Assembly: GCA_020850535.1 (NCBI GenBank)
Contig: JADZEM010000221.1
Coordinates: 1-33,929, forward strand
Direction of reading: 5' to 3'
Source of the DNA: Chloroflexota bacterium
GTDB lineage: Bacteria; Chloroflexota; UBA6077; JACCZL01
DNA length: 33,929 bases
A program made the position numbers and the translations under genes. Numbering within the stretch: the first letter of the stretch is position 1; each line of letters opens with the position of its first letter. The notes under the pieces were generated by a model. The model was given only the letters and a program-made list of their open reading frames with translations, made no database searches and was not told the DNA's origin. Shown one piece after another: positions 5,315 through 25,022 of this stretch.

Positions 5315-5755
5315 ATGAGCGTCGAACGTCCGGACGGGGCGAACGCGGCCTCCCCGCCAGCCGACCTGCCGAAGACGGATGCGGAGTGGCGCGAGCGCCT
5401 GACCCCGGAGCGGTACTACGTCCTGCGCCAGAAGGGGACCGAGCGTCCCTGGACCGGCGAGTACAACATGACCAAGATCGACGGCATGTATCACTGCGCC
5501 GGGTGCGGGGCCGAGCTGTTCACCTCCGACACCAAGTTTGACTCGCACTGTGGCTGGCCGAGCTTCACCTCGCCCGTCGCGCAGCAGAACGTCGAGCTGA
5601 CCGCCGACTACAGCCACGGGATGACCCGCACCGAGGTGACCTGCAAGCGCTGCGGCGGCCACCTGGGGCACGTCTTCGAAGACGGCCCGGCCCCGACCGG
5701 GCTGCGCTACTGCATCAACTCGCTCTCGCTGCAGCTGGAGCCGGACGGGAAGTAG
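5315..5755 (+). CDS. msrB: Peptide-methionine (R)-S-oxide reductase MsrB
   Basis: It reduces the R-epimer of methionine sulfoxide in oxidised proteins, using thioredoxin. The 146-residue protein has a complete SelR domain. Zinc ligands are the CAGC pair (Cys61, Cys64) and the CKRC pair (Cys110, Cys113). The catalytic Cys133 lies in RYCINS, and Cys79 in the SHCGWPSF motif is the likely resolving cysteine. His and Gly residues of GGHLGHVF are conserved. The first 20 residues are an unconserved Ala/Pro-rich extension with no signal peptide, so it acts in the cytosol. The start has GGAGGAG 6 nt upstream. A stand-alone MsrB with no MsrA nearby fits a general oxidative-repair role. Confidence 0.95.
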
Positions 5756-6460: not shown

Positions 6461-6958
6461 TCAGCCCTGAAAGGCCCGTTTGAAGGCATCCGGGACGTCC
6501 GCGCGGGGCAGGGCCGGCGTCGAGGCGTCGGCGGACGGCTGCTCGGGTGCAGGCAACCGGTCGGCTGCGTCGAAGAGGAGCGCTTCCGACGCCCGCAGGG
6601 GCAATCCCAGCACCACGGCCAGCCCGATCCCCAGGACGATCTCGACGGGCAGGCGGGCCTCGCCGGCCACGCCGCTGACGACCAGCCGCCCGGCCGCCAT
6701 CCCGAACATCGCCGGCACGATCTCGACGGCCACGATCTCGCCGCCGAGGGCATCTGCCACCTGGCCCATCAGGGTGTAGACCGCTGCCCGCAGGGTGATG
6801 TGCCCCTGCAATTCGTGGGTGAGCGTGCAGGCAGCCGCCGAGGAGATCGGCAGGATGAGCCGCCGCCGACAGTTGGTGCCGGCGGTAGGGTCCAGCGAGA
6901 CTTGCGGTACGCCCGTCTCGGGATGACGGTTGACAGCGCCCACACACACGTCGATCAC
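6461..6958 (-). CDS. DUF151/bifunctional-nuclease-like domain protein (divergent)
   Basis: A 165-residue protein whose first 130 residues resemble the DUF151 (bifunctional nuclease) fold. VIDVCVGAVNRHPETGVPQV corresponds to the opening strand pair with its 'DPETG.P.V' turn. The THELQGHITLRAAVYTLMGQ helix and the VADALGGEIVAVEIV strand follow. LPVEIVLGIGLAVVLGLPL corresponds to the usual '(D)ARPSDAIALALR..API' helix, but here the conserved Asp/Ser are missing. The last 30 residues are Pro/Ala-rich. Similarity is distant, so nuclease activity should not be assumed. GTG at 6958 has GGGGAGG 7 nt upstream and was chosen over an upstream frame to 7045. It is divergent from the gene pair at 7158-8539, sharing a roughly 200-bp promoter region. 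Confidence 0.55.
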   Translation of the reverse strand: MIDVCVGAVNRHPETGVPQVSLDPTAGTNCRRRLILPISSAAACTLTHELQGHITLRAAVYTLMGQVADALGGEIVAVEIVPAMFGMAAGRLVVSGVAGEARLPVEIVLGIGLAVVLGLPLRASEALLFDAADRLPAPEQPSADASTPALPRADVPDAFKRAFQG

Positions 6959-7039
6959 GATGCGGCCTCCCCGGCAACGGTGCGGACGGGAATGACGGCA
7001 ACGGCTGCCGCGCATGAGCCAGCCACACCACTCAGGCTT

Positions 7040-7072
7040 GTGCAATGCGAATGCACTAGGTTAGTATGACCT
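7040..7072. promoter_or_regulatory. Candidate operator palindromes in divergent promoter region
   Basis: GTGCA (7040-7044) and TGCAC (7052-7056) form an inverted repeat with a 7-nt spacer. Immediately after, CTAGGTTA (7056-7063) is followed 5 nt later by ACCT (AGGT...ACCT dyad). On the plus strand TTGTGC and TAGTAT lie 18 nt apart and could serve as a weak promoter for the 7158 gene. A similar CTAGGTTA-ACCT arrangement precedes sodN at 33151-33166. Confidence 0.35.
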
Positions 7073-7157
7073 TACTTCAGTTTGCAAGCGAGTGCATCGT
7101 GCGGGGCGTCACCCCCGATGCCCGTGTGGCAGGCTGACTCTTGCTGGGAGCTTCTTC

Positions 7158-7895
7158 GTGCCCTCCGTATCGGCTGCTGGCTTGCCCCCTGATCCATCAA
7201 CCATCGCCCGTCCATTTGCCCTGCTGCACCCGTGCACCAACTTCATCGACGAGCAGCTGGCGGACCCGCTGATCGGCGCGAACTTCGACCCTATCGACAT
7301 GTACGACCTGGAGCGTGCTGATCTGTCGGCGTACCTGGGGCTGGCCGTACCGGGGCTGGTCGATCAGGTGCATCTTGCCCGCCACGCCGAGAAGATTCGC
7401 GCCTACCTGGATACCGGGCGGGTGCTCGTCTTCAGTGGGATGTTGTTCCAGCCGTGGCTGCCGGGCGGCGGTGCGTACCACCCGAAGGCCGTCCGCTCGC
7501 ACCATGACTACGCCGTCCGTGTGGTGACCCCGCACCCGATCCTCGACGGCATCGAGATGGACAACCTGATCTACCGTCGCGGCGTGGCCGGCTTCTTCGC
7601 GCGGGGCCACAACGAGCCGCCGCCGGGGGCCGAGATCCTGCTGGCGCTGCCCGATGGCGAGCCGACGACGTACGTAGACCGTGTCAGCACGCGCGGGACG
7701 ATCCTCTGCCACAGCGGCAACGATCTGCTGGGCTACACCAACGCCGAGGGGACGGGGGCGCGGCTGGTGCCGCAACTGCTGGCCTGGATGCGGCAGGAGG
7801 CCCAGGTCCGGATGGCAGCGGTCAGATCGTCGGCCGCCGGCGAGCCGCAAGCGGCGCGCACGACGGGCGTGGTGGGCGCGGGGGCGGGCGCATGA
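7158..7895 (+). CDS. ThuA/class I glutamine amidotransferase-fold protein, paralogue 1
   Basis: A 245-residue protein of unknown function. The order of segments fits a flavodoxin/GATase1-like fold: FALLHPCTNFID at the start, DLSAYLGLAVPGLVDQ, a helix EKIRAYLDTGRVLVFSG, then HDYAVRVVTPHPILDGIEMD, which resembles the 'HPI..G' segment of ThuA-like proteins. The strand TTYVDRVSTRGTILCHSGND closes the domain, and the last 35 residues are variable. Where amidotransferases carry the nucleophile Cys after the elbow strand, this protein has SGMLFQPWLPGG, so no Cys catalysis is expected. GTG 7158 has GGGAG 7 nt upstream; a longer in-frame start at 7092 is not supported. Its stop overlaps the next gene (ATGA), and the two proteins are paralogues, suggesting a heteromeric pair. 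Confidence 0.65.
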   Translation: MPSVSAAGLPPDPSTIARPFALLHPCTNFIDEQLADPLIGANFDPIDMYDLERADLSAYLGLAVPGLVDQVHLARHAEKIRAYLDTGRVLVFSGMLFQPWLPGGGAYHPKAVRSHHDYAVRVVTPHPILDGIEMDNLIYRRGVAGFFARGHNEPPPGAEILLALPDGEPTTYVDRVSTRGTILCHSGNDLLGYTNAEGTGARLVPQLLAWMRQEAQVRMAAVRSSAAGEPQAARTTGVVGAGAGA

Positions 7896-8539
7896 GCCGG
7901 CTCGGCATGATCTACCTCGGATCGGCGCAGCAGCACATGGTGCTGCAAGATCCCGTCTACCGCCAGCATATCGACGAACTGGTCTACCTGCCCGAGCTGC
8001 CCGCCACCTCGCTGGACGATCTCGACGGGTTGATCGTGCCGTGCCGGGTGCACCAGGGACGGCTCTACGCCAGCGCGGAGCAGGTTCGAGCGGTGCTGGA
8101 TCGGGGCGGCACGGTGGTCCTGTTCGGGGAGCAGCCGCAGGCGTGGCTGCCGGGGTTGCAGTGGGAGCAGCGCCCGGTCAACTTCTGGTGGTGGCGCGAG
8201 GGCGGCAAGAGCGACCTCCGCGCCGCCCTGCCCGAGCACTCCCTGTTCGAGTACCTGACGCTTGCCGATGCGACCTGGCACTATCACGGGGTCTTCACGC
8301 CGCCTGCCGGGGCCGAGCGGATCATTGAGAGCGAGCACGGCGGGACGATCCTTTACGTCGACCGGGTGAGCACCCCGGGGACGCTGATCGTGACCTCGCT
8401 CGATCCGATGTTCCACATCGGGTCGAACTTTATGCCGGCGGCGGCGCGGTTCTTCCAGAAGTTCTTGCCGTGGCTGCGGGAGCGGATGCTGCCGGAGACG
8501 AGCGGGCGACAGCCGACAGTGGCCAGCGGTCAGGCGTGA
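7892..8539 (+). CDS. ThuA/class I glutamine amidotransferase-fold protein, paralogue 2
   Basis: A 215-residue protein of unknown function, translationally coupled to the gene before it by an ATGA overlap. It aligns with that protein through its length: DDLDGLIVPCRVHQG with its AYLGLAVPGLVDQ, RAVLDRGGTVVLFGEQPQAW with RAYLDTGRVLVFSGMLFQPW, and ILYVDRVSTPGTLIVTSLDP with its TTYVDRVSTRGTILCHSGND. The two share the YVDRVST motif exactly. The elbow again lacks Cys (LFGEQPQAWLPG). An aromatic-rich stretch (VNFWWWREGG, then ATWHYHGVF) is specific to this copy and may form a binding surface. The stop lies inside a 14-bp tandem repeat, so the C-terminal tail may be recently altered. Confidence 0.65.
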   Translation: MSRLGMIYLGSAQQHMVLQDPVYRQHIDELVYLPELPATSLDDLDGLIVPCRVHQGRLYASAEQVRAVLDRGGTVVLFGEQPQAWLPGLQWEQRPVNFWWWREGGKSDLRAALPEHSLFEYLTLADATWHYHGVFTPPAGAERIIESEHGGTILYVDRVSTPGTLIVTSLDPMFHIGSNFMPAAARFFQKFLPWLRERMLPETSGRQPTVASGQA

Positions 8540-8622: not shown

Positions 8623-11082
8623 TCAGACGCCCACGGCGAGGTGGATGGCCCCCTGTTTGCCGCGCTCTCCGACGATGGCGCCCGGGCCGACACAGCTCGG
8701 GCAGCCGCTCTCGCAGAGGCAGCGCTGCGCGAGGTCGGCGGCGGCCTCCAACAGCTCACGCCGCATCGTGAAGAGCCGCTCGGCGAACCCGACGCCGGCC
8801 GGCACCCGCTCGTAGACGTAGACGGTCGGCAGGCCTGTGAACGGCGATTTCACCTGCGGCACCACGCCGACGTCGTGCGGATCGCACATCAGGTAGAGCG
8901 GGGTGATCGCCCCGAGCAGGTTGGCCAGCCCGACCAGCCCGCCTTCGACCTCCTCCTTCGGAAGCCCGGCCGTGCGGGACTCCGGCAGGGTGACCCAGAA
9001 GGCGGTCGTCTGCAGCTCCTCCTCGGGGAGGTGGATCTTGCCCCAGCCGATGTTCTCGTGGGTGTTGAACTTGATCTTCTTGAAGATGGTCGGCTGGTAG
9101 GTGACGGAGACCTCGCCGTGGGCGTACGACAGGTCGTGGATCGAGGGGCGTGGATCGTCGGTGCGAGCGTCGGAGGACGGTAGCGCCGGCTGGGCAGGCG
9201 GGACAGCGCGCGTGGCAGCGTCCGCTCCTGGCTCCTGACTCCTGGCCCCAGCTGCCTCGCCGCGCTCCTGTGCGAAGACGTCCGTCACCTGGAGGTGGAC
9301 GGCCAGCTCGGCGTCGGTGTAGTAGTCCACCGAGACCTGGCGCACGTACGCCTTCTTCTCTTCCCAGTCGAGCCTCTCAACCTGGTGCTGCTGGCCGCCG
9401 TGGATGTAGATCGCCTCTTCGTGGAGGTAGATCGGGGCGGCGTAGCGGTCCATCTCCCCGATGACGCGGGGGGCGCCGGTCTGGGTGGTGTCAATGATGA
9501 CGAAGTTGTCGCTGGCGGCCGTGCGGAGGCTGACGGCCTCGGCGGGGAAGCGCTCGCTGGTCCAGTACCATTTCTTGCTGGTGCTGTTGTAGTGGAGCGC
9601 GCCATCCTCCTCGAAGTAGCGCAGTAATTCGTCGGTGGCCGCGCCGCCGAAGCGCTCGCCAGCCTCGAACGGCAGCTCGAAGGCGGCGCAGCGCAGATGG
9701 TTGGCGCGGATGACGAGGTTGCCCGGGTTGACGAGGCCGCTCTCGGGCGTGCGCCCGAAGAAGTAGTCGGGGTGGCTGGCGATGAACTGGTCCAGCGGCG
9801 ACGACGAGAGGACCAGCGCGGCGATGGACGGCTTGTCGCGCCGCCCGACGCGGCCCATCTGCTGGAGGGTCGAGGCGACGGTGCCGGGGTAGCCGGTCAG
9901 GACGGCCGCTTCGAGGCCGCCGATGTCGATGCCCAGCTCCAGGGCATTGGTGGCGACGACGCCGCGCACGGAGCCGTCGCGGATGCCGGACTCGATGGCG
10001 CGGCGCTCGCGGGGGAGGTAGCCGCCCCGGTACCCCCGGATGGCGTCGGGGTCCAGGTGGCGCTTCTTCGCGGCCTCTTTGAGGTAGTGCAGGAGCACCT
10101 CGACGCTCAGGCGGCTGCGCGCGAAGACGATGGTTTGCAGGCTGTTCGACAGAAAGGCCGTTGCGAGGTTCCGGGCCACCAGCGTGGACGAGCGGCGGAT
10201 GCCGAGCTGCTGGTTGACGACGGGCGGGTTGTAGAACAGCAGGAACTTCTCGGGGCTGGGTGCGCCGCTCTCGTTGACGAGGGCCAGGGGCAGATCGACC
10301 AGGGCTTCGGCGCGCTCGGCCAGCATCTCAGACGGCTCGAACGCGCCCTCGTCGATCAGCGAGCCGTACCCAACGAGGTTGCGGCCCAGCTCGTCGGCGT
10401 TGGCGATGGTGGCCGAGCAGCAGATGAACTGGGGATTGCTGCCGTAGTGGGCGCAGATGCGGCGCAGGCGGCGGATGACGTTCCCGACGTGGCTCCCGAA
10501 GACGCCGCGATAGTGGTGCAGCTCGTCCACCACGACGTACTTGAGGTTCTCGAAGAGGCGGACCCACTTGTCGTGGTGGGGGAGGATGCCGGTGTGGAGC
10601 ATGTCGGGATTGGTGACGACGACGTGGCCGGCCTGTCGGATGGCACGGCGGGCGGTGGCGGGAGTGTCGCCGTCGTAGGTGAACGTCTTGATGTCCGCGC
10701 CGGTGCTCTCGACAAGGCGGTGCAGCTCGGCCTGCTGATCCTGGGCGAGGGCCTTGGTCGGGAAGAGGTAGAGGGCGCGGGCGTTCGGATCTTTGAGGAT
10801 GGCGTCCAGAACGGGCAGGTTGTAGCAGAGGGTCTTGCCGCTGGCCGTCGGCGTGACGACCACGACGTTGCGGCCGTCGAGCACGTGCTGGATCGCCTGG
10901 GCCTGGTGGGTGTAGAGCTGCCCGACGCCGCGCGCCTCGTAGGCGGCTCGGAGGCGGCCGTCCAGTCCGTCGGGCAGGGGGGCATACATCGGCGGCCGGG
11001 CCGGCTGATGCCGGAAGGCGGCGATGTTGCCCTGGTGCTCGCGCGACTTGAGCAGGTGCTCGACCAGCTGGGGGACGTTCAT
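8623..11082 (-). CDS. mrfA: MrfA/YprA-like DEAD-box DNA repair helicase with C-terminal Cys4 zinc site
   Basis: An 819-residue superfamily 2 helicase. Walker A TPTASGKT is at 77-84, the DEAH-type box appears as DELHHY at 186-191, motif III SAT is at 223-225, and motif VI QQMGRVGRR is at about 407-415. The region after the helicase core ends in CLCESGCPSCVGP, whose four cysteines (788, 790, 794, 797) match the metal site of the DUF1998/MrfA C-terminal domain. In Bacillus subtilis MrfA is a 3'-5' helicase working with the exonuclease MrfB in repair of mitomycin-type DNA damage. No mrfB-like gene is visible here. Residues about 625-665 form an unconserved Ala/Pro/Ser linker. ATG 11082 fits the family N-terminus; only a weak AGGA precedes it. 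Confidence 0.88.
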   Translation of the reverse strand: MNVPQLVEHLLKSREHQGNIAAFRHQPARPPMYAPLPDGLDGRLRAAYEARGVGQLYTHQAQAIQHVLDGRNVVVVTPTASGKTLCYNLPVLDAILKDPNARALYLFPTKALAQDQQAELHRLVESTGADIKTFTYDGDTPATARRAIRQAGHVVVTNPDMLHTGILPHHDKWVRLFENLKYVVVDELHHYRGVFGSHVGNVIRRLRRICAHYGSNPQFICCSATIANADELGRNLVGYGSLIDEGAFEPSEMLAERAEALVDLPLALVNESGAPSPEKFLLFYNPPVVNQQLGIRRSSTLVARNLATAFLSNSLQTIVFARSRLSVEVLLHYLKEAAKKRHLDPDAIRGYRGGYLPRERRAIESGIRDGSVRGVVATNALELGIDIGGLEAAVLTGYPGTVASTLQQMGRVGRRDKPSIAALVLSSSPLDQFIASHPDYFFGRTPESGLVNPGNLVIRANHLRCAAFELPFEAGERFGGAATDELLRYFEEDGALHYNSTSKKWYWTSERFPAEAVSLRTAASDNFVIIDTTQTGAPRVIGEMDRYAAPIYLHEEAIYIHGGQQHQVERLDWEEKKAYVRQVSVDYYTDAELAVHLQVTDVFAQERGEAAGARSQEPGADAATRAVPPAQPALPSSDARTDDPRPSIHDLSYAHGEVSVTYQPTIFKKIKFNTHENIGWGKIHLPEEELQTTAFWVTLPESRTAGLPKEEVEGGLVGLANLLGAITPLYLMCDPHDVGVVPQVKSPFTGLPTVYVYERVPAGVGFAERLFTMRRELLEAAADLAQRCLCESGCPSCVGPGAIVGERGKQGAIHLAVGV

Positions 11083-11260
11083 GATCCTGCCACGAACAGG
11101 TGTTCCACCCGGCGATTGTAGACGGCGCGCCAGGGCAGGGGGCAAGCGGAGACCGTTCGGAAGCGAAACTGGCCCATCGTGCTACCCTGCCGGGAGCGTC
11201 CAGCACGGCCGGCAGGCTGGTGACGGACGCCTGACGTACTTTCACATCCGGAGACCGACG

Positions 11261-13564: not shown

Positions 13565-15235
13565 ATGGCGATGACAGCAGCCCCGGCAACCATGGGCAGC
13601 ACCATGCAAGGCCCGCACGGAGGCGCGTTCCGTCCGCCGGCCGTCGGCGTGCGCGGGGTCGTCAGCTCGGCGCACAACCTCGCCTCGCAGGCCGGCATCC
13701 GCGCGCTGCAGCAGGGCGGCAACGCCGTCGATGCCGCCGTTGCCGTGGCGGCCACCCTGGCCGTCGTCGAGCCGTTCATGTCCGGGCTGGGCGGTGGCGG
13801 CGGCTACATGCTGATCCGCGAGGGCACGACCGGCCAGATCCACGGCCTCGACTACCTGGGCCGGGCGCCGCGCGCCGCCCAGGGCAACGCCTGGACCGAC
13901 CAGGAAGAGGTCTACAGCGACGTCCGCGCGACCTGTCAGCCGAGCGCCGTGGCCGGCTGGCTGGCGGCCCTGGAGCGCTTCGGGCGGCTCGACCGCGCGG
14001 CCGTCTTCAGCTTCGCCATCGAGGTGGCCGAGCGCGGCTGGCCGATCACGGCGTTCGCGGCCGGCATGCTCGCCAACGCCGAGGCCCGCCTGAGCCGGTT
14101 CGCCTCGTCGCGGGCGGCCTACTTCCCAGACGGCCGCGTGCCGCGCGTGGGCGAGCTGGTGCCACAGCCGGGCATGGCGCGCAGCCTGCGGATGATCGCC
14201 GAGGGCGGCGCGGACGTCTACTACAAGGGCCAGCTTGGCGAGGAGATCACCCGGGCGATCCAGGAGGCCGGCGGCTGGCTGACCATGGACGACCTCGGGG
14301 ACATCCAGCTTCGGTGGCTGGAGCCGCTGGCCATCCAGTATCGCGGGAACACCGTGATGACGATGCCGCCCGAGTGCTCCGGCATCCAGTACCTCGAGTC
14401 GATGCGGATCCTCGAAGCGTTCGACCTCGAAGGCCTCGGCCATAACACGACCGCGTACCTGCACCTGCTGCTGGAGACCGTCAAGCTGGCGAGCGCCGAC
14501 CGCGCCGCCTACACGATGGATCCGTCCGTCCCGGCCACAAGCCTGCTCGCCGACGACTTCGTCGCCGGGCGGCGGGCGCTGATCGACTTCCAGCAGGCCG
14601 CCCAGAGCGAGGGTGAGCGCTACCTCGCCAAGAAGGACGGGCTGGTCGCCCCCGGCGATCCCCTCCGCTACAAGCGCGACCACACCACCCACTTCGAGGC
14701 CGTGGACGACGAGGGCAACCTCGTGTCCGTCACCCAGAGCAACGGCGGCGTCTTCGGAAACGCCTTTGTGGCCGGCGCGACGGGCATCCCGATGAACAAT
14801 TTCCTCTACTGGCAGGACGTCAATCCCGACAGCCCGAACTATCTCCGGCCCGGCCGCCCGATGGAATGCCCGATGGCCCCATGCATCGTCACGCGGGACG
14901 GCGCAGCGGTCCTCGGCATCGGCACACCGGGGTCGTACGGCATCCTGCAGACGACGCTCCAGATGCTGCTCAACCACCTGGATTTCGGGTTCAACGTCCA
15001 AGCGGCCATCGAAGCTCCCCGCTTCCGGGCCTTCGAGCGGACGTTGGTGGACGTGGAAGGGCGCCTGCCGACCGAGACGGTGGACGGCCTGCGGGCGCTC
15101 GGGCACGAGCTGCGGATCCTGGCGCCGTTCACCAACGCCGTCGGCGGAGGACACGGCGTCGCCGTCGATCCGCGGAGCGGCCTGCTGACCGGTGGGGCGG
15201 ACCCCCGTCGGGATGGTGCGTCGCTGGGCTGGTAG
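13565..15235 (+). CDS. ggt: Gamma-glutamyltransferase family protein (Ntn hydrolase)
   Basis: The enzyme cleaves gamma-glutamyl bonds (for example in glutathione) and is made as a proenzyme that cuts itself. In this 556-residue protein the large-subunit start VVSSAHNLASQAGIRALQQG and GNAVDAAVAVAATLAVVEP are followed by the glycine-rich SGLGGGGGYMLI. The self-cleavage site is DHTTHFEAVDDEGN, making Thr374 the likely nucleophile and new N-terminus of the small subunit. The later PMNNFLYW and GTPGSYGILQT segments are also conserved. No signal peptide is visible, unlike the periplasmic E. coli enzyme, so it may be cytosolic or act on another gamma-glutamyl or amide substrate. ATG 13565 has GGAGG 6 nt upstream. 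The sensor kinase follows after 106 bp. Confidence 0.92.
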   Translation: MAMTAAPATMGSTMQGPHGGAFRPPAVGVRGVVSSAHNLASQAGIRALQQGGNAVDAAVAVAATLAVVEPFMSGLGGGGGYMLIREGTTGQIHGLDYLGRAPRAAQGNAWTDQEEVYSDVRATCQPSAVAGWLAALERFGRLDRAAVFSFAIEVAERGWPITAFAAGMLANAEARLSRFASSRAAYFPDGRVPRVGELVPQPGMARSLRMIAEGGADVYYKGQLGEEITRAIQEAGGWLTMDDLGDIQLRWLEPLAIQYRGNTVMTMPPECSGIQYLESMRILEAFDLEGLGHNTTAYLHLLLETVKLASADRAAYTMDPSVPATSLLADDFVAGRRALIDFQQAAQSEGERYLAKKDGLVAPGDPLRYKRDHTTHFEAVDDEGNLVSVTQSNGGVFGNAFVAGATGIPMNNFLYWQDVNPDSPNYLRPGRPMECPMAPCIVTRDGAAVLGIGTPGSYGILQTTLQMLLNHLDFGFNVQAAIEAPRFRAFERTLVDVEGRLPTETVDGLRALGHELRILAPFTNAVGGGHGVAVDPRSGLLTGGADPRRDGASLGW

Positions 15236-15341
15236 CGGGCTGGTACCCTTCGGCGCCGAGCGACCGACTGGCGCTCGGCGCGTACACACAACACCGGGTG
15301 TTGGCGGCCCCTGTCGTAACGGGCCGCCAGTGAGGCGACGC

Positions 15342-17150
15342 GTGCCCTACCGAGATCAGCAGCCGCGGCCCTGGAATGATGACCAGGACGACGCCCGGGA
15401 GAGCCGGCGCACCTGGCTCGACGCCTCGCTGATCCCGCTGCTGCTGCTGCTCGTACTCGCGCCGCCCGTCGTCCATGCCCTCGGTAACGCCCTGGACCGC
15501 CCGATTGTCCACCCGAGCATCGACATGCTCGTGGTGGCGCTCGGGCTGATCTGTCTGGGCCTGCTCTGGGCGCGGCTGCGGGCCTTCAGCCGCCACACCA
15601 GCGATGAGCGGCAGCGTGCCCACGCCGTGCGCGACCGTCTGAGTGTGGCGCTTGGCCGAGAGCGGGCGACGCTTGCCACCGTCATCGCCAACATGGGCGA
15701 GGGGCTGGCCATCCTCGACGCCGACCGCATCGTGCGGTTCGCGAACCGGCCGGCGGCCGAGCTGCTCGGCGTCGAGCCCGGCTCGACCATGGGGATGCAT
15801 GTCGAGCAGGTCATCGGGCGGCTGGCCGAGCGGCTGGCTTCGCCCACCGAGGCGTTCGCCGAGTGGCGGCGCGTCAGCTCCAACCCTGAGGCCCGCGAGG
15901 CGTTCGAGGTCCGCCTGCTGGGCGACGGCGCAACGGTCCCCGCGCGTGACCTCCGCATCCAGGTCTTCCCCGTGCCCACCGACGACGAGACCCGCTCGGG
16001 CGTCGGCCTCACGCTGCGCGACGTGACCCCAGAACGTGACGTGACGCGCCTCAAGGACGAGATCATCTCGGTCGTCAACCACGAGCTGCGAACGCCGCTG
16101 GCGAGCGTCGTCGGGTTTGCCGAGCTGCTCCTGCTGCGCGAGTTCCCGGAAGACCAGCGCCGCCGCTTCCTGACCTCGATGGTGCAGGAGAGCCGCCGGC
16201 TCGCCTCGCTCGTCGACGACCTGCTGGACCTCCAGCGGATGACGGGCGGCGGCGATCCGCTGGCGTTCGAGGCGTGTCTGCCGTATCTGCTGCTCGAACG
16301 GGCGGTCAGCACGGTCGGCCCGGACTCGGCCTGCCCCATCGTCATCGACGCGCCGACGGACCTGCCGCCGGTGCGGGCGGACGCCAACAGCGTTCAGCAA
16401 GTGCTGAGCAACCTGCTCGGGAACGCCCGCAAGTACTCTCCGGGCGGCGGGACTGTCGTGCTGAGCGCGCGCGAGGTGGATGGCGCCGTCGAGATCGCCG
16501 TGACGGACCACGGGCTGGGCATCCCACCCGAGGCCCTGCCTCGCCTGTTCGAGCGGTTCTATCGCGTCGATAATACCGACAGGCGTGAGATCCGGGGGAC
16601 CGGGCTCGGGTTGGCGATCGTTAAGGGGCTGGTGGAGGCGCACGGCGGCCAGGTTCGTGCAGAATCAGCCGGTCTGGGAACGGGGGCGCGGCTGAGTTTC
16701 ACCCTCCCCCTGGCCGATGTGCCCGCTGAGGCTGGTGATGTGTTGATCGTGGAGGACGACGTCGTGTTTGGCCGGCTGCTCGAAGTCGAGCTGGGATCGC
16801 GGGGGCTGACGGCCCGGCGCGTGGAGACGGGCGCGGCAGCCCTGGCCGCCGTGCTCGGCACACCGCCGCAGGCCGTGATGCTCGATCTGATGCTGCCGGA
16901 CACGACCGGCGACGCCCTCCTGCGCGAGCTGCGCGCCCGTGATGTGGGTATCGGCACGGTCTGCATCGTCACGCACCGCGACATCGGAGCGGCAGAGCGC
17001 GCCGAGCTTGAAAGCCTGGGCGTGACGCGGATCATGTCCAAGCGCCCGGGCATCGCCAGCGCCGCGGCGGACGCCGTAGCCGAGGCTCTCAAGGTGTCCG
17101 GCGTCGCCGTGCGCGAGCCCGCGCCGTCCGGCGAGGAGACCGCGTCATGA
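15342..17150 (+). CDS. Membrane hybrid sensor histidine kinase (2 TM-PAS-HisKA-HATPase-REC)
   Basis: A 602-residue hybrid kinase. Two membrane helices are visible (about residues 27-50 and 62-82), with a short extracytoplasmic loop. A PAS domain follows (ATVIANMGEGLAILDADRIV). The phosphorylated histidine is His247 in NHELRTPL. The ATP lid and N-box are seen as NLLGNARKYSPGG, DHGLGIPPE and GTGLGLAIVKGL. A C-terminal receiver begins VLIVEDD and has its phospho-Asp at about residue 515 (MLDLMLPD) and the conserved Lys in MSKRPG. GTG 15342 has TGAGG 6 nt upstream and starts just before the first membrane helix. The stop overlaps the next start (ATGA), so phosphotransfer from His to internal Asp and on to the coupled single-domain regulator is plausible. 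The signal and target genes are not evident. Confidence 0.9.
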   Translation: MPYRDQQPRPWNDDQDDARESRRTWLDASLIPLLLLLVLAPPVVHALGNALDRPIVHPSIDMLVVALGLICLGLLWARLRAFSRHTSDERQRAHAVRDRLSVALGRERATLATVIANMGEGLAILDADRIVRFANRPAAELLGVEPGSTMGMHVEQVIGRLAERLASPTEAFAEWRRVSSNPEAREAFEVRLLGDGATVPARDLRIQVFPVPTDDETRSGVGLTLRDVTPERDVTRLKDEIISVVNHELRTPLASVVGFAELLLLREFPEDQRRRFLTSMVQESRRLASLVDDLLDLQRMTGGGDPLAFEACLPYLLLERAVSTVGPDSACPIVIDAPTDLPPVRADANSVQQVLSNLLGNARKYSPGGGTVVLSAREVDGAVEIAVTDHGLGIPPEALPRLFERFYRVDNTDRREIRGTGLGLAIVKGLVEAHGGQVRAESAGLGTGARLSFTLPLADVPAEAGDVLIVEDDVVFGRLLEVELGSRGLTARRVETGAAALAAVLGTPPQAVMLDLMLPDTTGDALLRELRARDVGIGTVCIVTHRDIGAAERAELESLGVTRIMSKRPGIASAAADAVAEALKVSGVAVREPAPSGEETAS

Positions 17151-17536
17151 GCGGTCCGTCCGCGGCCGGCAAACGGTATGTCCTCATCGCCGACGACGAG
17201 CCGAGCATGCGGCTGCTGGTCAACGCGACCATCGCCTCGGACCAGATCGGCGTCATCGAAGCGGCGGACGGCGACGAGGCCTGGGCGCTGATCCTCCAGC
17301 ACCGGCCGGAGCTGGTGCTGCTGGACGTGCAGATGCCAGGGCAGACGGGGCTGGAGGTGGCGCGGCGGGTGCGCGAGCATCCAGCGCTCACCCACACCAA
17401 GATCGTGATGCTGACCTCGAAGGCCCAGGCGATGGACATCGAGGCCGGGCTGGCGGCCGGCGCGGACCTGTACCTGACGAAGCCGTTCTCGCCGATCTCG
17501 CTGCTGACGTACGTCGAGGGGGCGCTGGGGCTGTAG
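17147..17536 (+). CDS. CheY-like single-domain response regulator
   Basis: A 129-residue receiver domain and nothing else. The acidic pocket is Asp16-Asp17 in ADDEPS, the phosphoacceptor is Asp60 in LLDVQMPG, the switch Thr is Thr90 in MLTSKA, and the conserved Lys is Lys112 in LTKPFS. With no output domain, it probably acts by protein-protein contact or as a phosphorelay intermediate. Its ATG overlaps the stop of the hybrid kinase, which makes that kinase its likely partner. Another receiver protein with a GAF domain is encoded at 29503-30657 and could belong to the same network, but this is speculation. Confidence 0.93.
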   Translation: MSGPSAAGKRYVLIADDEPSMRLLVNATIASDQIGVIEAADGDEAWALILQHRPELVLLDVQMPGQTGLEVARRVREHPALTHTKIVMLTSKAQAMDIEAGLAAGADLYLTKPFSPISLLTYVEGALGL

Positions 17537-17707: not shown

Positions 17708-17736
17708 TTGACCGGCCGCCGTGGTTACGCTATACC
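17708..17736 (+). promoter_or_regulatory. Sigma70-type promoter candidate for first solute-binding protein
   Basis: TTGACC (17708-17713) and TATACC (17731-17736) are separated by exactly 17 nt. The -10 end lies 89 nt before the ATG at 17826. The second binding-protein gene has a similar pair (TTGACG, 17 nt, TACACC) at nearly the same distance, which strengthens both calls. Confidence 0.55.
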
Positions 17737-17825
17737 TCGCCAGACGCGTCAGCGCTGCTGCTGCGCGGAGATCTCGGCAGGTGACAAGGGCAGTCACCTG
17801 CCGCCCTACCAGTGGGGGTAGCACC

Positions 17826-20066
17826 ATGGCACAATGGCCTGGCATGTCGCGTCGTGCGTTGCTCCAGGGGACGTTCGGGGTCGTCGGAGTGAGCCTGCTT
17901 GCCGCCTGTGCGCCGGCGGCCCCGGCCGCCAAGCCGGCCGAATCGAAGCCAGCCGCGCCCGCTGCCACCACCGCGCCGGCCAAGCCGGCCGAGGCTGCGA
18001 AGCCGGCCGAAGCTGCCAAGCCTGCCGAGGTCGCCAAGCCCGCGGTGCCGGCGGCTGCCGCCCCGCCCGCCGCCAAGCCGGCCGAGGCTGCGAAGCCGGC
18101 CGCTGCCGGCAAGCCCGGCGAGCAGAAGCTCGGCGCGCAGCTCATCGGCAAGTGGGAAGGCCCGGAGATCCTGGCCGAGGCGAAGCGCCCGGCGAAGCTG
18201 GGTGAGGCCCCGATGCTCGCCGAGCTGGTCAAGGCCGGCAAGCTGCCCGCTGTCGAGCAGCGTGTGCCTGAGGAGCCGATGGTCATCAAGCCGGTCCACG
18301 AGATCGGCAAGTACGGCGGGACCTGGCGTAGAGGCTTCACCGGCCCGGGCGATCACGAAAACGGCAACCGGATCATGTCGAACGATAAGCTGGTCTTCTG
18401 GGACTTCCAGGGGATCCAGCAGAAGCCGTCGGTTGCCCGTGGCTGGGAGATCACCGAAGGCGGCCGCGTCATCACCTTCTTCCTGCGGAAGGGCCACAAG
18501 TGGTCTGATGGCACGCCGCTCACCGCCGACGACTTCATGTTCTGGTACGAGGACATCTACGGGGACAAGGAGCTGACGCCCACCCCCACCGCCGACCTGT
18601 CCATCAACGGCAAGGTCGGCAAGATGGAGAAGGTCAACGAGACGACCGTCCGCTTCTCGTTCCCAGACCCGTACCCCGGGTTCCTCGACATCATGGGCGG
18701 CAGCACCTACATCGGCTCGGCCCAGAACCAGGGCTCCGACCCGCAGTTCCGGGGACCGTACGCGCCGGCCCACTACCTGAAGCAGTTCCTGCCCAAGTAT
18801 GCTGGCCAGGCCAAGGTGGAGGAGCTGACCAAGGCGGCCGGCATCGACACCTGGGTCAACTTCTTCCGGAATCGTGCCAACTGGCGGTACAACGTCGATC
18901 TGCCGGTGCTGGCTGCCTGGAAGACGGTGCAGCCGATCAACACGCCGGTCTGGACCCTGGAGCGCAATCCGTTCTTCTTCGGGGTGGACACCGAGGGGAA
19001 CCAGCTTCCGTACTGGGACAAGGTCCAGTTCACCCTGGCTGAGAACCTGGAAGTGCTCAACCTGCGTGCCATCGCCGGCGAGTTCGACTCGCAAGAGCGC
19101 CACATCGACATGGGCAAGCTGCCCGTCTTCCTGGAGAACCAGCAGAAGGGCAACTACACCGTCAAGCTCGACCCTTCCGCCAACGGCTCGGATGCCACCA
19201 TCCAGGTGAACCAGAGCTACTCGGCGGATCCTGAGATCGCCAAGTGGCTGCGGAACCGCGACTTCCGCCACGCCCTCGCGCTCGGGGTGGACCGCGAGCA
19301 GCTCAACGAGGTGTTCTGGCTGGGCACTGGCACGCCCGGCTCGACCGTCCCCGACGAGTCGTTGCCAGCGAACCCTGGCCCTGAGTGGCGGAAGAAGTGG
19401 GCCGTGCTGGATGTCAAGCAGGCGAACGAACTGCTCGACAAGATCGGCCTGACGAAGAAGGATGCCGAGGGGTACCGCCTGCGGACCGACAACGGCCAGC
19501 GACTGCGGCTCCAGATGCCGACCGTTGGCGGCTCGTTCGTGCCGTTCCCGAAGATCGGCGAGATGCTCGCTCAGCAGTGGAAGGCTATCGGCATTCAGCT
19601 CGACGCGCAGGAAGTCGAGCGCAGCCTGAACCAGCGACGGCAGCTCGCCAACGAGAACCAGATCGAGCTGTGGGCCAACGACGGCTCGGAGCTGCTGTAC
19701 GGCTACCCGAACCACGCCCTGCCGATCACGACGGGTGTGCTGATGGGGACGGAGATCGGCAAGTGGTTCGCCTCGAACGGCGCGCAGGGCATGAAGCCGG
19801 AAGACCCCGAGATGGAGAAGGCGCTCGACCTGTTCCGCAAGGGGCCGGGGCTTGAAGCCGAGGCGCGCACCAAGCAGATTCAGGAGATCTGGAAGATCCT
19901 GGCCGAGGGCGCATGGTCCATCGGCACCGTCGGGCTGTCACCGGCGGTCATGGGGGTTCGCATCGTCAGGAACAACGTCGGGAACTCGCCGTCGCGGCAG
20001 TTCAACGGGCAGCACGGTCGCACGCCGACGGCGATGCAGCCGTGCACTATGTACTTCAAGAGCTAG
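17826..20066 (+). CDS. ABC transporter substrate-binding lipoprotein, family 5 (copy 1)
   Basis: A large (746-residue) extracellular binding protein of the SBP_bac_5 (dipeptide/oligopeptide/nickel) family. The N-terminus has a twin-Arg start (SRRALLQG), a hydrophobic core and the lipobox LLAAC, so it is a membrane-anchored lipoprotein, perhaps exported folded by Tat. Residues about 35-100 are a flexible linker of repeated AKPAEAAKP units, a spacer between the anchor and the domain. The binding domain starts at about 110; the family hallmark is seen in ITFFLRKGHKWSDGTPLTADD (one of several conserved blocks), with the late FNGQHGRTPTAMQP at the C-terminus. It is roughly 150-200 residues longer than typical DppA/OppA. 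GGGGG lies 7 nt before the ATG. It is the first of two tandem copies ahead of the permease genes. Confidence 0.92.
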   Translation: MAQWPGMSRRALLQGTFGVVGVSLLAACAPAAPAAKPAESKPAAPAATTAPAKPAEAAKPAEAAKPAEVAKPAVPAAAAPPAAKPAEAAKPAAAGKPGEQKLGAQLIGKWEGPEILAEAKRPAKLGEAPMLAELVKAGKLPAVEQRVPEEPMVIKPVHEIGKYGGTWRRGFTGPGDHENGNRIMSNDKLVFWDFQGIQQKPSVARGWEITEGGRVITFFLRKGHKWSDGTPLTADDFMFWYEDIYGDKELTPTPTADLSINGKVGKMEKVNETTVRFSFPDPYPGFLDIMGGSTYIGSAQNQGSDPQFRGPYAPAHYLKQFLPKYAGQAKVEELTKAAGIDTWVNFFRNRANWRYNVDLPVLAAWKTVQPINTPVWTLERNPFFFGVDTEGNQLPYWDKVQFTLAENLEVLNLRAIAGEFDSQERHIDMGKLPVFLENQQKGNYTVKLDPSANGSDATIQVNQSYSADPEIAKWLRNRDFRHALALGVDREQLNEVFWLGTGTPGSTVPDESLPANPGPEWRKKWAVLDVKQANELLDKIGLTKKDAEGYRLRTDNGQRLRLQMPTVGGSFVPFPKIGEMLAQQWKAIGIQLDAQEVERSLNQRRQLANENQIELWANDGSELLYGYPNHALPITTGVLMGTEIGKWFASNGAQGMKPEDPEMEKALDLFRKGPGLEAEARTKQIQEIWKILAEGAWSIGTVGLSPAVMGVRIVRNNVGNSPSRQFNGQHGRTPTAMQPCTMYFKS

Positions 20067-20179
20067 GTGGAATGGTTGCGGCGGGGAGTCGTCAGCCGCC
20101 CGCCGCAACCAGCGCAAGCGTGTGCATCCTGCGCCGTGGAGCGTGAGCAGCGGTCGTGTCGTGAAAATTGTGTCAGACG

Positions 20180-20213
20180 GCCTGAGCCATATTCTGGCGG
20201 GTATCGCTCAGGC
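20180..20213. promoter_or_regulatory. 8-bp inverted repeat abutting the second SBP promoter
   Basis: GCCTGAGC (20180-20187) is the exact reverse complement of GCTCAGGC (20206-20213), with an 18-nt spacer. The right arm ends directly before the candidate -35 box TTGACG at 20214. It could end the transcript of the first binding-protein gene or be an operator for the second. Confidence 0.45.
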
Positions 20214-20242
20214 TTGACGATCCGGATTTCCCGTGGTACACC
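20214..20242 (+). promoter_or_regulatory. Sigma70-type promoter candidate for second solute-binding protein
   Basis: TTGACG (20214-20219), a 17-nt spacer and TACACC (20237-20242). The -10 end is 92 nt from the ATG at 20335. The spacer ends in CCGTGG(T), a string also found in the spacer of the promoter upstream of copy 1. The -10 match is weak taken alone. Confidence 0.4.
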
Positions 20243-20290
20243 GTCGCCACGTACGCAGTGTGTGGCTTTGACGCCATACAGATCCCCCCG

Positions 20291-20309
20291 ACCGGGGCAC
20301 GGCCCCGGT
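20291..20309 (+). promoter_or_regulatory. Leader hairpin before second SBP gene
   Basis: ACCGGGGC (20291-20298) pairs with GCCCCGGT (20302-20309) around a 3-nt loop. It lies 11 nt before the GGAGG ribosome-binding site of the 20335 gene, so it could protect the mRNA 5' end or shape translation. It has no T-run. Confidence 0.4.
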
Positions 20310-20334
20310 GCTCCACGATGGAGGTTGCACGCGC

Positions 20335-22566
20335 ATGTCAATGATGCATCCGTTCTCTCGCAGGTCGTTCCTGCGTGTCGGCGTCGGCGTCGCCGGCGTG
20401 GGGTTGCTGGCGGCCTGTGCGCCGGCGGCTCCGGCCACGAAGCCGGCAGAGACCAAGCCGGCGGAGACCAAGCCCGCCGAGGCAGCGAAGCCGGCTGCCG
20501 CTGCGCCGACGACGGCTGCTGCCGCGCCGGCCAAGCCGGCCGAGGCTGCGAAGCCGGCCGACGCTGCCAAGCCGGCCGCCGATGCGAAGCCCGCTGCTGG
20601 CGCGCCGGCGGCCAAGCCCGGCGAGGGCGGCCTGGGCTCGCAGTTCATCGGGAAGTGGGAAGGCGGCGAGATCCTGGACAAGGCCGAGCGGCCGGCCAAG
20701 CTCGGCGAGGCCCCGATGCTGGCGGAGCTGGTCAAGGGTGGCAAGCTGCCGGCCGTCGAGCAGCGGCTCCCCGCCGAGCCGCTGGTCATCAAGCCGCTTG
20801 AGGGCATTGGCAAGTACGGCGGCACCTGGCGGCGTGCTTTCACCGGCCCTGGCGACGGTGAGAACGGCAACCGGATCATCTCGCTCGACAAGATCGTGTT
20901 CTGGGATTACCAGGGCGTCAAGCAGCGGCCGGGCGTGGCCAAGAGCTGGGAAGTGAAGGATGGCGGCAAGACCATCACCTTCTTCCTGCGAAAGGGCCAC
21001 AAGTGGTCGGACGGGCAGCCGTTCACCGCTGACGACGTGATGTTCTGGTTCAACGACATCTACGGCAACAAGGATCTCGTCCCGGCGCCGACCGCTGAGC
21101 TGACCATCAATGGCAAGGCCGGCACGCTGGAGAAGGTGGACGAGACGACCGTCCGCTTCACGTTCCCCGAGCCGTACCCTGGCTTCATGGACATCATCGG
21201 CGGCTCGACGTTCCTCGGCTCCTCGCAGAACCAGGGCGACAGCTACCGGGGGATCGTCGCGCCGGCCCACTACCTGAAGCAGTTCCTGCCGAAGTACTCG
21301 GACCAGGCGAAGATCGAGGCCGAGGCGAAGGCTGCCAACTTCGACAGCTGGGTGAGCTACTTCAAGTTCAAGATCAACTGGCGGCTCAACCCGGACCTGC
21401 CGGTCCTGGGGCCGTGGAAGACGGCCACGCCGATCAACACCCCCGCCTGGACCCTTGAGCGGAACCCGTTCTTCTACGCCGTGGACACCGAGGGCAACCA
21501 GCTCCCGTACCTGGACAAGGTCCAGATGACGCTCGGCGAGAACCTCGAGGTCATCAACCTCCGGGCCATCGCCGGCGAGTACGACGAGCAAGAGCGCCAC
21601 ATGGACCTCGGCAAGCTGCCGGTGTTCATCGAGAACCGGCAGAAGGGGAACTACGCGATCCACCTCGACCCGGCCGCCAACGGCGCGGACGCGGCGTGGC
21701 AGATCAACCAGAGCTTCTCAGCCGATCCGGAGATCGCCAAGTGGCTGCGCAACAGAGATTTCCGTCACGCCCTGGCGCTCGGCCTTGACCGCGACCAGCT
21801 CAACGAGACGTTCTGGCTCGGCGTGGGCACGCCTGGATCGTCGGCCCCGGCCGAGACCTCCCCGTACAGCCCGGGCCCCGAGTACCGGAAGAAGTGGGCC
21901 ACGCTGGATGTCAACCAGGCGAATCAGCTGCTGGACAAGATCGGCCTGGATAAGAAGGACGCCGAAGGCTTCCGGCTGCGGACGGACGGCAAGGGCCGGC
22001 TCCGCATCGAGCTGGTGACGGTGGGCGGCTCGTTCGTGCCGTTCCCGAAGATCGGCGAGATGATGAGCCAGCAGCTGAAGAAGATCGGCATCCAGCTCGA
22101 CGCTGTGGAGCACGAGCGGACGCTGGCCGAGCGGCGGCGCGACGGCAACGAGGTCCAGACGGTGATCTGGGCGAACGACGGCTCCGAGCTGTTGTACGCT
22201 TTCCCGGACCACGCCCTGCCCGTGCGGGCCGGCCAGTGCTGGATGGGGCCGGAGATCGGCAAGTGGTACCAGAGCGGCGGATCGGCTGGGATGAAGCCTG
22301 AGGATCCGGAGATGCTCAAGGCGCTCGACCTGTTCAAGGGCGCATTCGGCAAGGAGGAGGCAGACCGCATCAAGACCGCGCAGGAGATCTGGAAGATCAT
22401 CGTCGAGGAGAGCTGGACGGTCGGAACTGTCGGCCTGTCGCCGGCCGTCATGGGCGTCCGGATCGTCAAGAACAACCTCGGCAACATTCCGCAGCGGCAG
22501 TTCAACGGCCAGCACGGGCGAACGCCGTGCGCCGCGCTGCCGGTGACGTGGTTCTTCAAGAGCTAG
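20335..22566 (+). CDS. ABC transporter substrate-binding lipoprotein, family 5 (copy 2)
   Basis: A 743-residue paralogue of the preceding binding protein, very similar along its whole length, for example EIGKWYQSGGSAGMKPEDPEM against EIGKWFASNGAQGMKPEDPEM. It too has a twin-Arg motif (SRRSFLRVG), lipobox LLAAC, an Ala/Lys/Pro/Glu linker (about residues 30-95) and an SBP_bac_5 domain (ITFFLRKGHKWSDGQPFTADD). Differences fall partly in surface loops and partly in the central VNQSYSADPEIA versus INQSFSADPEIA region, so ligands may be related but not identical. ATG 20335 has GGAGG 10 nt upstream; a longer in-frame reading from 20308 lacks a site. A terminator-like hairpin follows, then the permease genes. 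Confidence 0.92.
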   Translation: MSMMHPFSRRSFLRVGVGVAGVGLLAACAPAAPATKPAETKPAETKPAEAAKPAAAAPTTAAAAPAKPAEAAKPADAAKPAADAKPAAGAPAAKPGEGGLGSQFIGKWEGGEILDKAERPAKLGEAPMLAELVKGGKLPAVEQRLPAEPLVIKPLEGIGKYGGTWRRAFTGPGDGENGNRIISLDKIVFWDYQGVKQRPGVAKSWEVKDGGKTITFFLRKGHKWSDGQPFTADDVMFWFNDIYGNKDLVPAPTAELTINGKAGTLEKVDETTVRFTFPEPYPGFMDIIGGSTFLGSSQNQGDSYRGIVAPAHYLKQFLPKYSDQAKIEAEAKAANFDSWVSYFKFKINWRLNPDLPVLGPWKTATPINTPAWTLERNPFFYAVDTEGNQLPYLDKVQMTLGENLEVINLRAIAGEYDEQERHMDLGKLPVFIENRQKGNYAIHLDPAANGADAAWQINQSFSADPEIAKWLRNRDFRHALALGLDRDQLNETFWLGVGTPGSSAPAETSPYSPGPEYRKKWATLDVNQANQLLDKIGLDKKDAEGFRLRTDGKGRLRIELVTVGGSFVPFPKIGEMMSQQLKKIGIQLDAVEHERTLAERRRDGNEVQTVIWANDGSELLYAFPDHALPVRAGQCWMGPEIGKWYQSGGSAGMKPEDPEMLKALDLFKGAFGKEEADRIKTAQEIWKIIVEESWTVGTVGLSPAVMGVRIVKNNLGNIPQRQFNGQHGRTPCAALPVTWFFKS

Positions 22567-22577
22567 GCGCGTGAAAA

Positions 22578-22605
22578 GGGCTGCCCGCACTGGCGCGGGC
22601 AGCCC
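22578..22605 (+). terminator. Strong 11-bp hairpin after second SBP gene
   Basis: GGGCTGCCCGC (22578-22588) pairs perfectly with GCGGGCAGCCC (22595-22605) around a 6-nt loop, 12 nt after the stop codon. No T-run follows. Placed between a binding-protein gene and its permease genes, it fits an attenuator that makes much more binding protein than membrane components. Confidence 0.65.
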
Positions 22606-22745
22606 ATACTGTGCGGGTGGCAACCTGACGCCACCTGCTGACCATCGGCTGACAATCGAGTGACGAGCGTGGGGTAGGGGCGTCGTCCTGGCGCGTTTGC
22701 CCCTCTCCCAGACTCCCCACCCTACACTCGGAGCTGGATAGGACG

Positions 22746-23735
22746 ATGATCGCGTACCTGATTCGCCGACTGATCCTCGCACTGTTTACCGTCGTGGCGA
22801 TCTCGATGTTGTCGTTCGCCATCATTCAGCTGCCGCCTGGAGACTACGTCGACGCGTACATCGCGCAGATGTCGGCGTCGGGCAGCGCGGTCTCCCAGCA
22901 GGAGGCCGAGAACCTCCGAATCCAGTATGGACTCGATCAACCGATCTACGTGCAGTATCTGAAGTGGATGGCCCTCGCCATGCGCGGCAACTTCGGCATG
23001 GCGATGGAATGGGGCCGCCCGGTGACGGAAGTCATCGGTGACCGCCTCGCGCTGACGATGGTCGTCTCGATTGCGGCGGTCATCCTGACGTGGGGGCTGG
23101 CCTTGCCGATTGGCATCTACTCGGCCATGCGCCAGTACTCCATCGGCGACTATGTTTTCACCTTCATTGGTTTCATCGGACTGGCGGTGCCGGGCTTCCT
23201 GCTGGCGCTGCTGATCCTCTACTTTGGTTTCACGCTCTTCGACGCCAACATCGGCGGCCTCTTCAGCGCAGAGTATCTGGACGCGCCCTGGAGCTTCGGC
23301 AAGTTCATGGACCTGCTGAACCACCTGCCGATTCCGGCCTTGATCCTCGGGCTGGCGGGCACCGGGCAGGCCGTCCGCATCATGCGCGCCAACCTGCTGG
23401 ACGAGCTGCGGAAGCCGTACGTGGTGACGGCGCGCGCCAAGGGCCTGTCCGAGACCCGGGCGATCCTCAAGTACCCGGTCCGCGTGGCCCTCAACCCCTT
23501 CGCGAGCACGATCGGCTACACGCTTCCCTACGTGGTCTCGGGCAGCATCATCGTGTCGCTGGTGCTGAGCTTACCGACCGTCGGCCCACTACTACTCAAG
23601 GCGCTGATCGCCCAGGACATGTTCCTCGCCGGCACCATCGTGTTGCTGCTCGGCGTGATGACGGTGATCGGCACGTTCCTCTCTGACCTGATCCTGATGT
23701 GGATCGATCCGCGCATCCGGCTGGAAGGACGGTAA
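22746..23735 (+). CDS. ABC transporter permease, DppB/OppB type
   Basis: A 329-residue inner-membrane permease that forms half of the peptide-type transport channel. The N-terminus MIAYLIRRLILALFTVVAIS is the usual first membrane helix with its RR, and the early QYGLDQPIYVQYLKWM loop is the family hallmark. The EAA loop that contacts the ATPase is seen as ELRKPYVVTARAKGLSETRAI, and the C-terminus ends DLILMWIDPRIRLEGR. Six membrane spans are expected. An AGGA lies close before the ATG. It is the first gene of a tight group: the partner permease starts 3 nt after its stop. Confidence 0.93.
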   Translation: MIAYLIRRLILALFTVVAISMLSFAIIQLPPGDYVDAYIAQMSASGSAVSQQEAENLRIQYGLDQPIYVQYLKWMALAMRGNFGMAMEWGRPVTEVIGDRLALTMVVSIAAVILTWGLALPIGIYSAMRQYSIGDYVFTFIGFIGLAVPGFLLALLILYFGFTLFDANIGGLFSAEYLDAPWSFGKFMDLLNHLPIPALILGLAGTGQAVRIMRANLLDELRKPYVVTARAKGLSETRAILKYPVRVALNPFASTIGYTLPYVVSGSIIVSLVLSLPTVGPLLLKALIAQDMFLAGTIVLLLGVMTVIGTFLSDLILMWIDPRIRLEGR

Positions 23736-23738
23736 GCC

Positions 23739-24923: not shown

Positions 24924-24930
24924 CCGGCGA

Positions 24931-24997
24931 GTTCTCAGTCATCAGTTATCAGTCATCAGTGGGCCTCGAGCGCTGCTGACGACTGATGACTGAGAAC
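24931..24997. repeat. Perfect 16-bp inverted repeat inside the transporter operon
   Basis: GTTCTCAGTCATCAGT (24931-24946) is the exact reverse complement of ACTGATGACTGAGAAC (24982-24997). The 35-nt spacer contains a further direct copy of CAGTCATCAGT. It fills the 99-bp gap between the second permease and the first ATPase gene. Its low GC and tract of TCAG units differ from the surrounding genes, suggesting an inserted intergenic repeat. Confidence 0.85.
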
Positions 24998-25022
24998 TGA
25001 CGACTGGGGAGCAAAGCGACCG

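Follow-up and report, generated by a model that had tools for sequence, protein, structure and literature searches.

The stretch of DNA analysed here (the window) comprises 33,929 nucleotides of a Chloroflexota genome and contains two overlapping genes on the forward strand, gene A (7158 to 7895, 245 aa) and gene B (7892 to 8539, 215 aa). Open reading frames, profile matches and AlphaFold2 models identify the products as GATase1-like paralogues, A without the catalytic Cys and B with an invariant set of His and Asp residues. The ORF check places the end of A at 7895 and the ATG of B at 7892, and the two genes share an ATGA stop/start overlap (7892 to 7895, forward strand). The GTG at 7158 is preceded by GGGAG and is a plausible start for gene A, for which the longest ORF opens at 7092. 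In both genes the GC content by codon position is like that of coding DNA in a GC-rich host genome. The proteins have the 7-mer YVDRVST in common, their VPGLV/VPCRV and LPGG/LPGL blocks run parallel, a tblastn search with B in its own genome retrieves A at E=2.5e-11, and the B profile picks up A copies in other genomes. By these sequence comparisons A and B are true paralogues, and the ATGA-coupled paralogue pair claimed in a first-pass annotation of the window is borne out.

Curated family collections have little to say about either protein. Pfam contains no family for A, and for B only DUF4350 (PF14258) at a sub-threshold 14.8 versus 30.4 bits; NCBIfam has nothing matching A or B. ThuA (PF06283) gave no match to A or B of the window up to an E value of 10 and reached 17.4 bits, versus a gathering score of 33.4, in one fused relative. 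A sequence search of solved structures revealed no relative of A or of B. The first-pass annotation had recognized no described system of this kind, and Pfam, NCBIfam and the literature likewise hold no description of the pair, the literature search having covered the topics FmdE, ThuA, metallophores and Fur, with subscription journals mostly outside its reach. A phage origin of the pair was considered and rejected, as phage records and viral contigs gave no match.

Upstream of gene A, on the reverse strand, lies a divergent BFN/DUF151-like gene (6461 to 7045). It had been suggested earlier that a heteromer of A and B is functionally linked to this neighbour. The gene itself is present, albeit with a PF02577 match below the cut-off (21.3 versus 27 bits), and its adjacency and the shared intergenic region in the window speak for such a link; however, a tblastn search over all fetched loci matched this gene only in copies of the window itself, so that the idea of a functional trio was abandoned and the link is now hardly credible. 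The other neighbours are ordinary: a SelR-type methionine sulfoxide reductase (5315-5755), an MrfA/HRQ1-like helicase (8623-11145), a gamma-glutamyltranspeptidase (13565-15235) and a histidine kinase with response regulator (15192-17536). The nearest importer genes in the window start at 17721. They belong to a region at a distance of 9 kb from the pair (17721-27115) that encodes two family-5 binding proteins as well as Opp-type permeases and ATPases.

Fold and invariant residues

A and B were modelled as single chains with AlphaFold2, using family alignments, and the models reached pLDDT values of 84.9 and 88.9, respectively. Foldseek searches of the PDB returned 2gk3 as the best match for A (E 3.6e-6), in addition to PuuD, IFT52 and GH42, and 7bob, 3fij, 2gk3 and 3rht for B. 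Models and matches agree for the two proteins, indicating that both are GATase1/ThuA-like in fold, as had been proposed from the sequence. TM-scores of only about 0.4-0.6 (E about 1e-6 to 1e-3) indicate that they form a distant branch of this fold.

The predicted fold is common to A, B and the GATase1 proteins, including class I glutamine amidotransferases, PuuD, STM3548 (2gk3), lin1909 (3fij) and 3rht. However, the nucleophile of the catalytic class I enzymes is absent. The elbow codon of A (7440 to 7442, forward strand) specifies Met and that of B (8129 to 8131, forward strand) Glu, confirming the earlier reading of the two elbows. Among 62 A domains, the residue is H, E, N, Q, M, K or L (His in 30 of the 62), and among 63 B domains it is E, P, A, Q, D, I, V or L, so that Cys occurs in 0 of 125 domains. 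A and B also differ from the GATase1 proteins in scoring below every Pfam and NCBIfam cut-off and in forming an obligate pair beside importer genes.

Other positions are nearly or fully invariant. In A, the Asp of a VDQ motif (7362 to 7364, forward strand) is kept in 59/62 domains and replaced by Glu in two, and a GVxGFxxRG motif (7581 to 7607, forward strand) is conserved in the family alignment, with the Gly of its RG in 62/62 and the Arg in 60/62. In B, a WHxHG motif (8276 to 8290, forward strand) has Trp129, His130 and Gly133 in 63/63 domains and His132 in 58/63, and an LDPxxHxG motif (8399 to 8422, forward strand) has Asp171, Pro172 and His175 in 63/63. The window proteins carry all four motifs of this family signature. 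The aromatic patch FWWWREGG, previously noticed in B of the window, turned out to be family-wide: the segment is present in 59 B domains, all of which keep two of its Trp. The conserved His/Asp set of B, in a GATase fold that lacks Cys at the elbow, suggests a binding site for a metal or ligand.

It should be noted that some related domains share part of these features. ThuA-like proteins, DUF4159, DUF4350 and the GATase-like domain of GH42 have the fold and an HP(I/L)F segment in common with A and B. The matches are weak and stay below the curated cut-offs, and A and B are distinguished by the WHxHG plus LDPxxHxG set and the importer context. The C-terminal GATase-like domain of NEW3-domain proteins of about 850 aa from Bacilli (L099 37-2061; L100-L111) is recognized by the B profile with E values of 1e-7 to 1e-10; it has a PEHPLF segment as in B, but these proteins are large and multidomain and do not keep WHxHG. 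Domain III of the large subunit of dimethylformamidase, a ThuA-like domain that hydrolyses an amide with a catalytic Fe(III), is a weak structural match to A, but its Fe is coordinated by two Tyr and one Glu, versus the His/Asp set of B, and the enzyme has a different partner subunit and no importer (PMC7686228).

Pairing and distribution of A and B

In total, 57 loci including the window were examined, drawn from Bacillota, Pseudomonadota, Chloroflexota and one haloarchaeon, some of them near-identical (L024/L026, L124/L125). All 57 have A next to B or fused to it, in either order. Fusions exist both as A-B (L022, L028, L034) and as B-A (L009, L031, L035, L037), which argues that A and B are physical partners. 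Besides the pair in the window, its host genome carries two more on contig C13, which makes three. For L140 the best score of either half is to B, and the tree places one of them as the equivalent of A. Broken or truncated copies occur as well (L030, L032, L038, L132, L146), and the remnants L038 and L146 retain parts of both genes. Probes for A and for B recover nearly the same plasmid records; one apparent A-only plasmid (Ensifer PDNC004) proved to be a deletion remnant that retains the beginning of B along with part of a FecB gene. The paralogues are thus consistently found together, and the expectation that such a tandem pair forms a heteromer is strengthened by obligate pairing and by fusion in both orders; on these genomic grounds, a heterodimer, in which A would contact B, is well supported.

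Apart from the label of L140, the A domains group in a single clade and so do the B domains, and the two clades branch similarly, indicating that the duplication predates the spread of the pair. Profile searches matched 5 of 400 Chloroflexota genomes, about 17 of 399 genomes of Bacilli (at full strength), 6 of 385 genomes of Alphaproteobacteria and 32 plasmid records. The remaining hits in Bacilli are to the C-terminal domain of the NEW3 proteins of about 850 aa. The patchy distribution and the carriage on plasmids are consistent with horizontal transfer. The fused pair of Martelella (L030 4001-11168) is split into two ORFs. A record assigned to Dysgonomonadaceae, CP070277, equals this Martelella record in plasmid length and match values, and one of the two labels may therefore reflect a contaminant.

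Importer genes beside the pair

ABC importer genes adjoin the pair in the other loci, and they belong to at least four families: a FecBCD type (for example, L010, L019, L023 and L124), a Nik/Opp type (L011, L014-L017, L118-L123 and C13 in L012), an SsuABC/NMT1 type (L032, L134, L136) and an Fbp/PhnS-like type in the haloarchaeon Natribaculum (L036). The copies without an adjoining importer are that of the window and a truncated remnant of R. sophoriradicis (L038), and the truncated L132 and L146 have importer fragments only. The window pair is thus an intact orphan copy of the A/B module, and the importer partner had escaped the first-pass annotation because it is visible only in related loci. 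One of these is in the same genome, where parts of a single Nik-type importer have an A/B pair on either side (C13:115001-135000; L012 7603-15823), the first pair being located between the binding-protein and permease genes. Two pairs per importer are also found in L018, L021, L023, L127, L129 and R. etli.

Mapping of the importer class onto the B tree, a quick tree with SH-aLRT as the only branch support, requires 10 changes, and well-supported branches force at least five changes for the Fec label and likewise for the Nik label. Because the importer class switches repeatedly, the pair appears to track the cargo and not one transporter fold; a component that keeps a constant signature across transporter families more likely works on what is transported. 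Alternatively, the pair could regulate the importer by docking on the permease or the ATPase and gating transport in response to cytosolic iron. Importer genes adjoin it constantly, the pair often directly follows the importer ATPase gene, the catalytic Cys of GATases is absent, and there is a precedent in SlyD, a cytosolic metal-binding protein that controls the nickel ABC importer NiuBDE in Helicobacter pylori (PMC7840056). SlyD would share with the pair the place of a cytosolic partner of an ABC metal importer, but it is an unrelated protein with demonstrated permease binding and nickel as cargo (PMC7840056). At least four unrelated importer families with repeated swaps are difficult to reconcile with a single docking surface, and the invariance of a polar His/Asp set speaks for ligand chemistry; regulation of the importer by the pair is therefore unlikely, though worth keeping in mind.

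A role in the biosynthesis of a chelator, for example, in amide-bond formation, would suit the GATase1-like fold and the presence of IucA/IucC-like siderophore biosynthesis genes in one plasmid locus. Nevertheless, no biosynthetic genes were seen at most loci, importers are found nearly everywhere and the glutaminase Cys is absent, all of which makes such a role very improbable.

Further genes accompany the pair and its importers. A third gene of about 170 aa recurs beside many pairs and is FmdE-like, its PF02663 scores being 19.9 and 17.1 bits at a cut-off of 22.9. FmdE proteins have a metal site in their structures, and most FmdE genes adjoin metal-ion transporter genes (PMC2954224); the Cys of the known metal site is not conserved in the alignment of the third gene. 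On methanotroph plasmids, the pair loci adjoin genes for TonB siderophore receptors and for PepSY proteins, and HemP is encoded nearby. In Chloroflexota locus L138, a Nik-type permease-ATPase, a NicO-type protein, an RhtX/FptX-like MFS carrier and two half-transporters are encoded near the pair. Three Paenibacillus-like loci have genes for an FtsE-like ATPase and an FtsX-like permease behind the pair (L118 7618-9161, L121 7625-10119, L021 10603-12119) and, also downstream, a gene whose product, about 320 aa long, has no Pfam match. The plasmid pTHAF187b_d (22.6 kb, typed as conjugative) carries the fused pair, a FecBCD importer, the FmdE-like gene and phnG/phnH consecutively (L034 1-12999), and the gene order in A. 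vitis resembles this arrangement. In L130 a flavodoxin gene (7098-7538) separates the pair from the FmdE-like gene.

Iron regulation and a possible cytosolic role

Regulatory motifs were scanned in 25 Bacillota loci, using assumed consensus motifs of Fur, Zur and PerR; pair-importer blocks included flanks of 350 bp. With the Fur motif TGATAATNATTATCA and up to two mismatches, 45 boxes were found in 171 kb of blocks and 14 in the remaining 249 kb, while Markov controls led to an average expectation of 1.7 in the blocks. Boxes are present in 24 of the 25 blocks, several of them with perfect matches, and in 14 of the 15 Nik-type blocks. The Zur motif (5 inside and 6 outside) and the PerR motif (15 inside and 13 outside) were not comparably enriched in these loci. 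These motif counts provide good support for the view that the pair-importer blocks of Bacillota form an iron regulon, and because Nik-type blocks carry Fur boxes too, this group is likely to be concerned with iron rather than nickel. A pure nickel module was rejected on the grounds that, in these 25 loci, Fur boxes dominate over Zur boxes and are present in Nik-type blocks as well. Riboswitch control was rejected as well, since 19 loci contain no Rfam riboswitch of any kind, nickel-cobalt included.

An iron-regulated module could still have a cargo other than a ferric siderophore, such as heme, nickel, another metal complex or a phosphonate. Several neighbours are in line with this: HemP adjoins one FecBCD set, a hemoglobin/transferrin-type TonB receptor is encoded in another locus, the Nik-type binding proteins are similar to NikA and to the heme-binding HbpA, genes for HupE/UreJ and NicO nickel permeases are present in two loci, and C-P lyase genes adjoin a related importer. 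However, the Fur boxes before Nik-type Bacillota blocks, the lack of Zur enrichment and the lack of riboswitches in the 19 loci all count against it, and a cargo of this kind is regarded as quite unlikely.

Taken together, the reading favoured here, to which we assign an even chance, is that A and B act in the cytosol as an obligate heterodimer, which receives iron or its chelates once they have been imported, or processes them. ABC importers of unrelated families, most of which are apparently induced by iron starvation in the group that was tested, Bacillota, would bring in an iron chelate that is siderophore-like or, possibly, heme; the pair would take over the chelate or the iron on the cytosolic side and help to free the metal or to break the chelator. 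The working site would reside in B, with the WHxHG and LDPxxHxG residues, and A would complete or gate the pocket. We infer the contact of A and B, the binding of iron at this site and the step of release or processing; the cytosolic location would fit the observation that no signal peptide was seen by eye in either protein. SsuABC-like importers are not known to carry iron, and the window copy lacks an adjoining importer; both points count against this reading, as does the difference between the His set and the iron ligands of dimethylformamidase. A more general proposal, which we put forward tentatively, is that the two proteins together act as an enzyme or metallochaperone, with a GATase fold lacking its Cys and a His/Asp metal site of its own, and that imported iron chelates generally pass through this station inside the cell, behind at least four unrelated ABC importer families in Bacteria and Archaea.

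The release of iron from its carrier after import is understood for few chelators only. The cytosolic proteins that act in siderophore-iron release, the Fes esterase and the FhuF and SIP reductases, are each usually tied to one chelator class. As is proposed for the heterodimer, they handle a ferric chelate after ABC import and under iron control, but their folds are unrelated to that of the pair and they are not a two-protein module that moves between importer families. A module that keeps its signature across importer families points to a common cytosolic step, and the pair seems to represent a previously undescribed component of the microbial handling of imported iron. Its context gives the Nik/Opp-type importers of Bacillota a testable role connected with iron and brings within reach the function of a widespread family whose members are labelled hypothetical proteins or left unannotated.

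Iron control might extend to the window itself. A DtxR/IdeR-like operator, CTAGGTTAGTATGACCTTA, precedes A in the intergenic region between the divergent genes (7056 to 7074, forward strand), with five mismatches to an assumed 19-bp DtxR consensus. It is the only DtxR-like site in the window with up to six mismatches, and an equally good match occurs in about one of 20 Markov windows and in 0 of 300 controls of equal length. The site was spotted by eye before the test, and the genome of the window has one DtxR-type regulator and no strict DtxR boxes, so that it can be taken as suggestive only. A similarly suggestive DtxR-like site with four mismatches (0 of 300 controls) is situated just upstream of the operon in the haloarchaeal locus L036.
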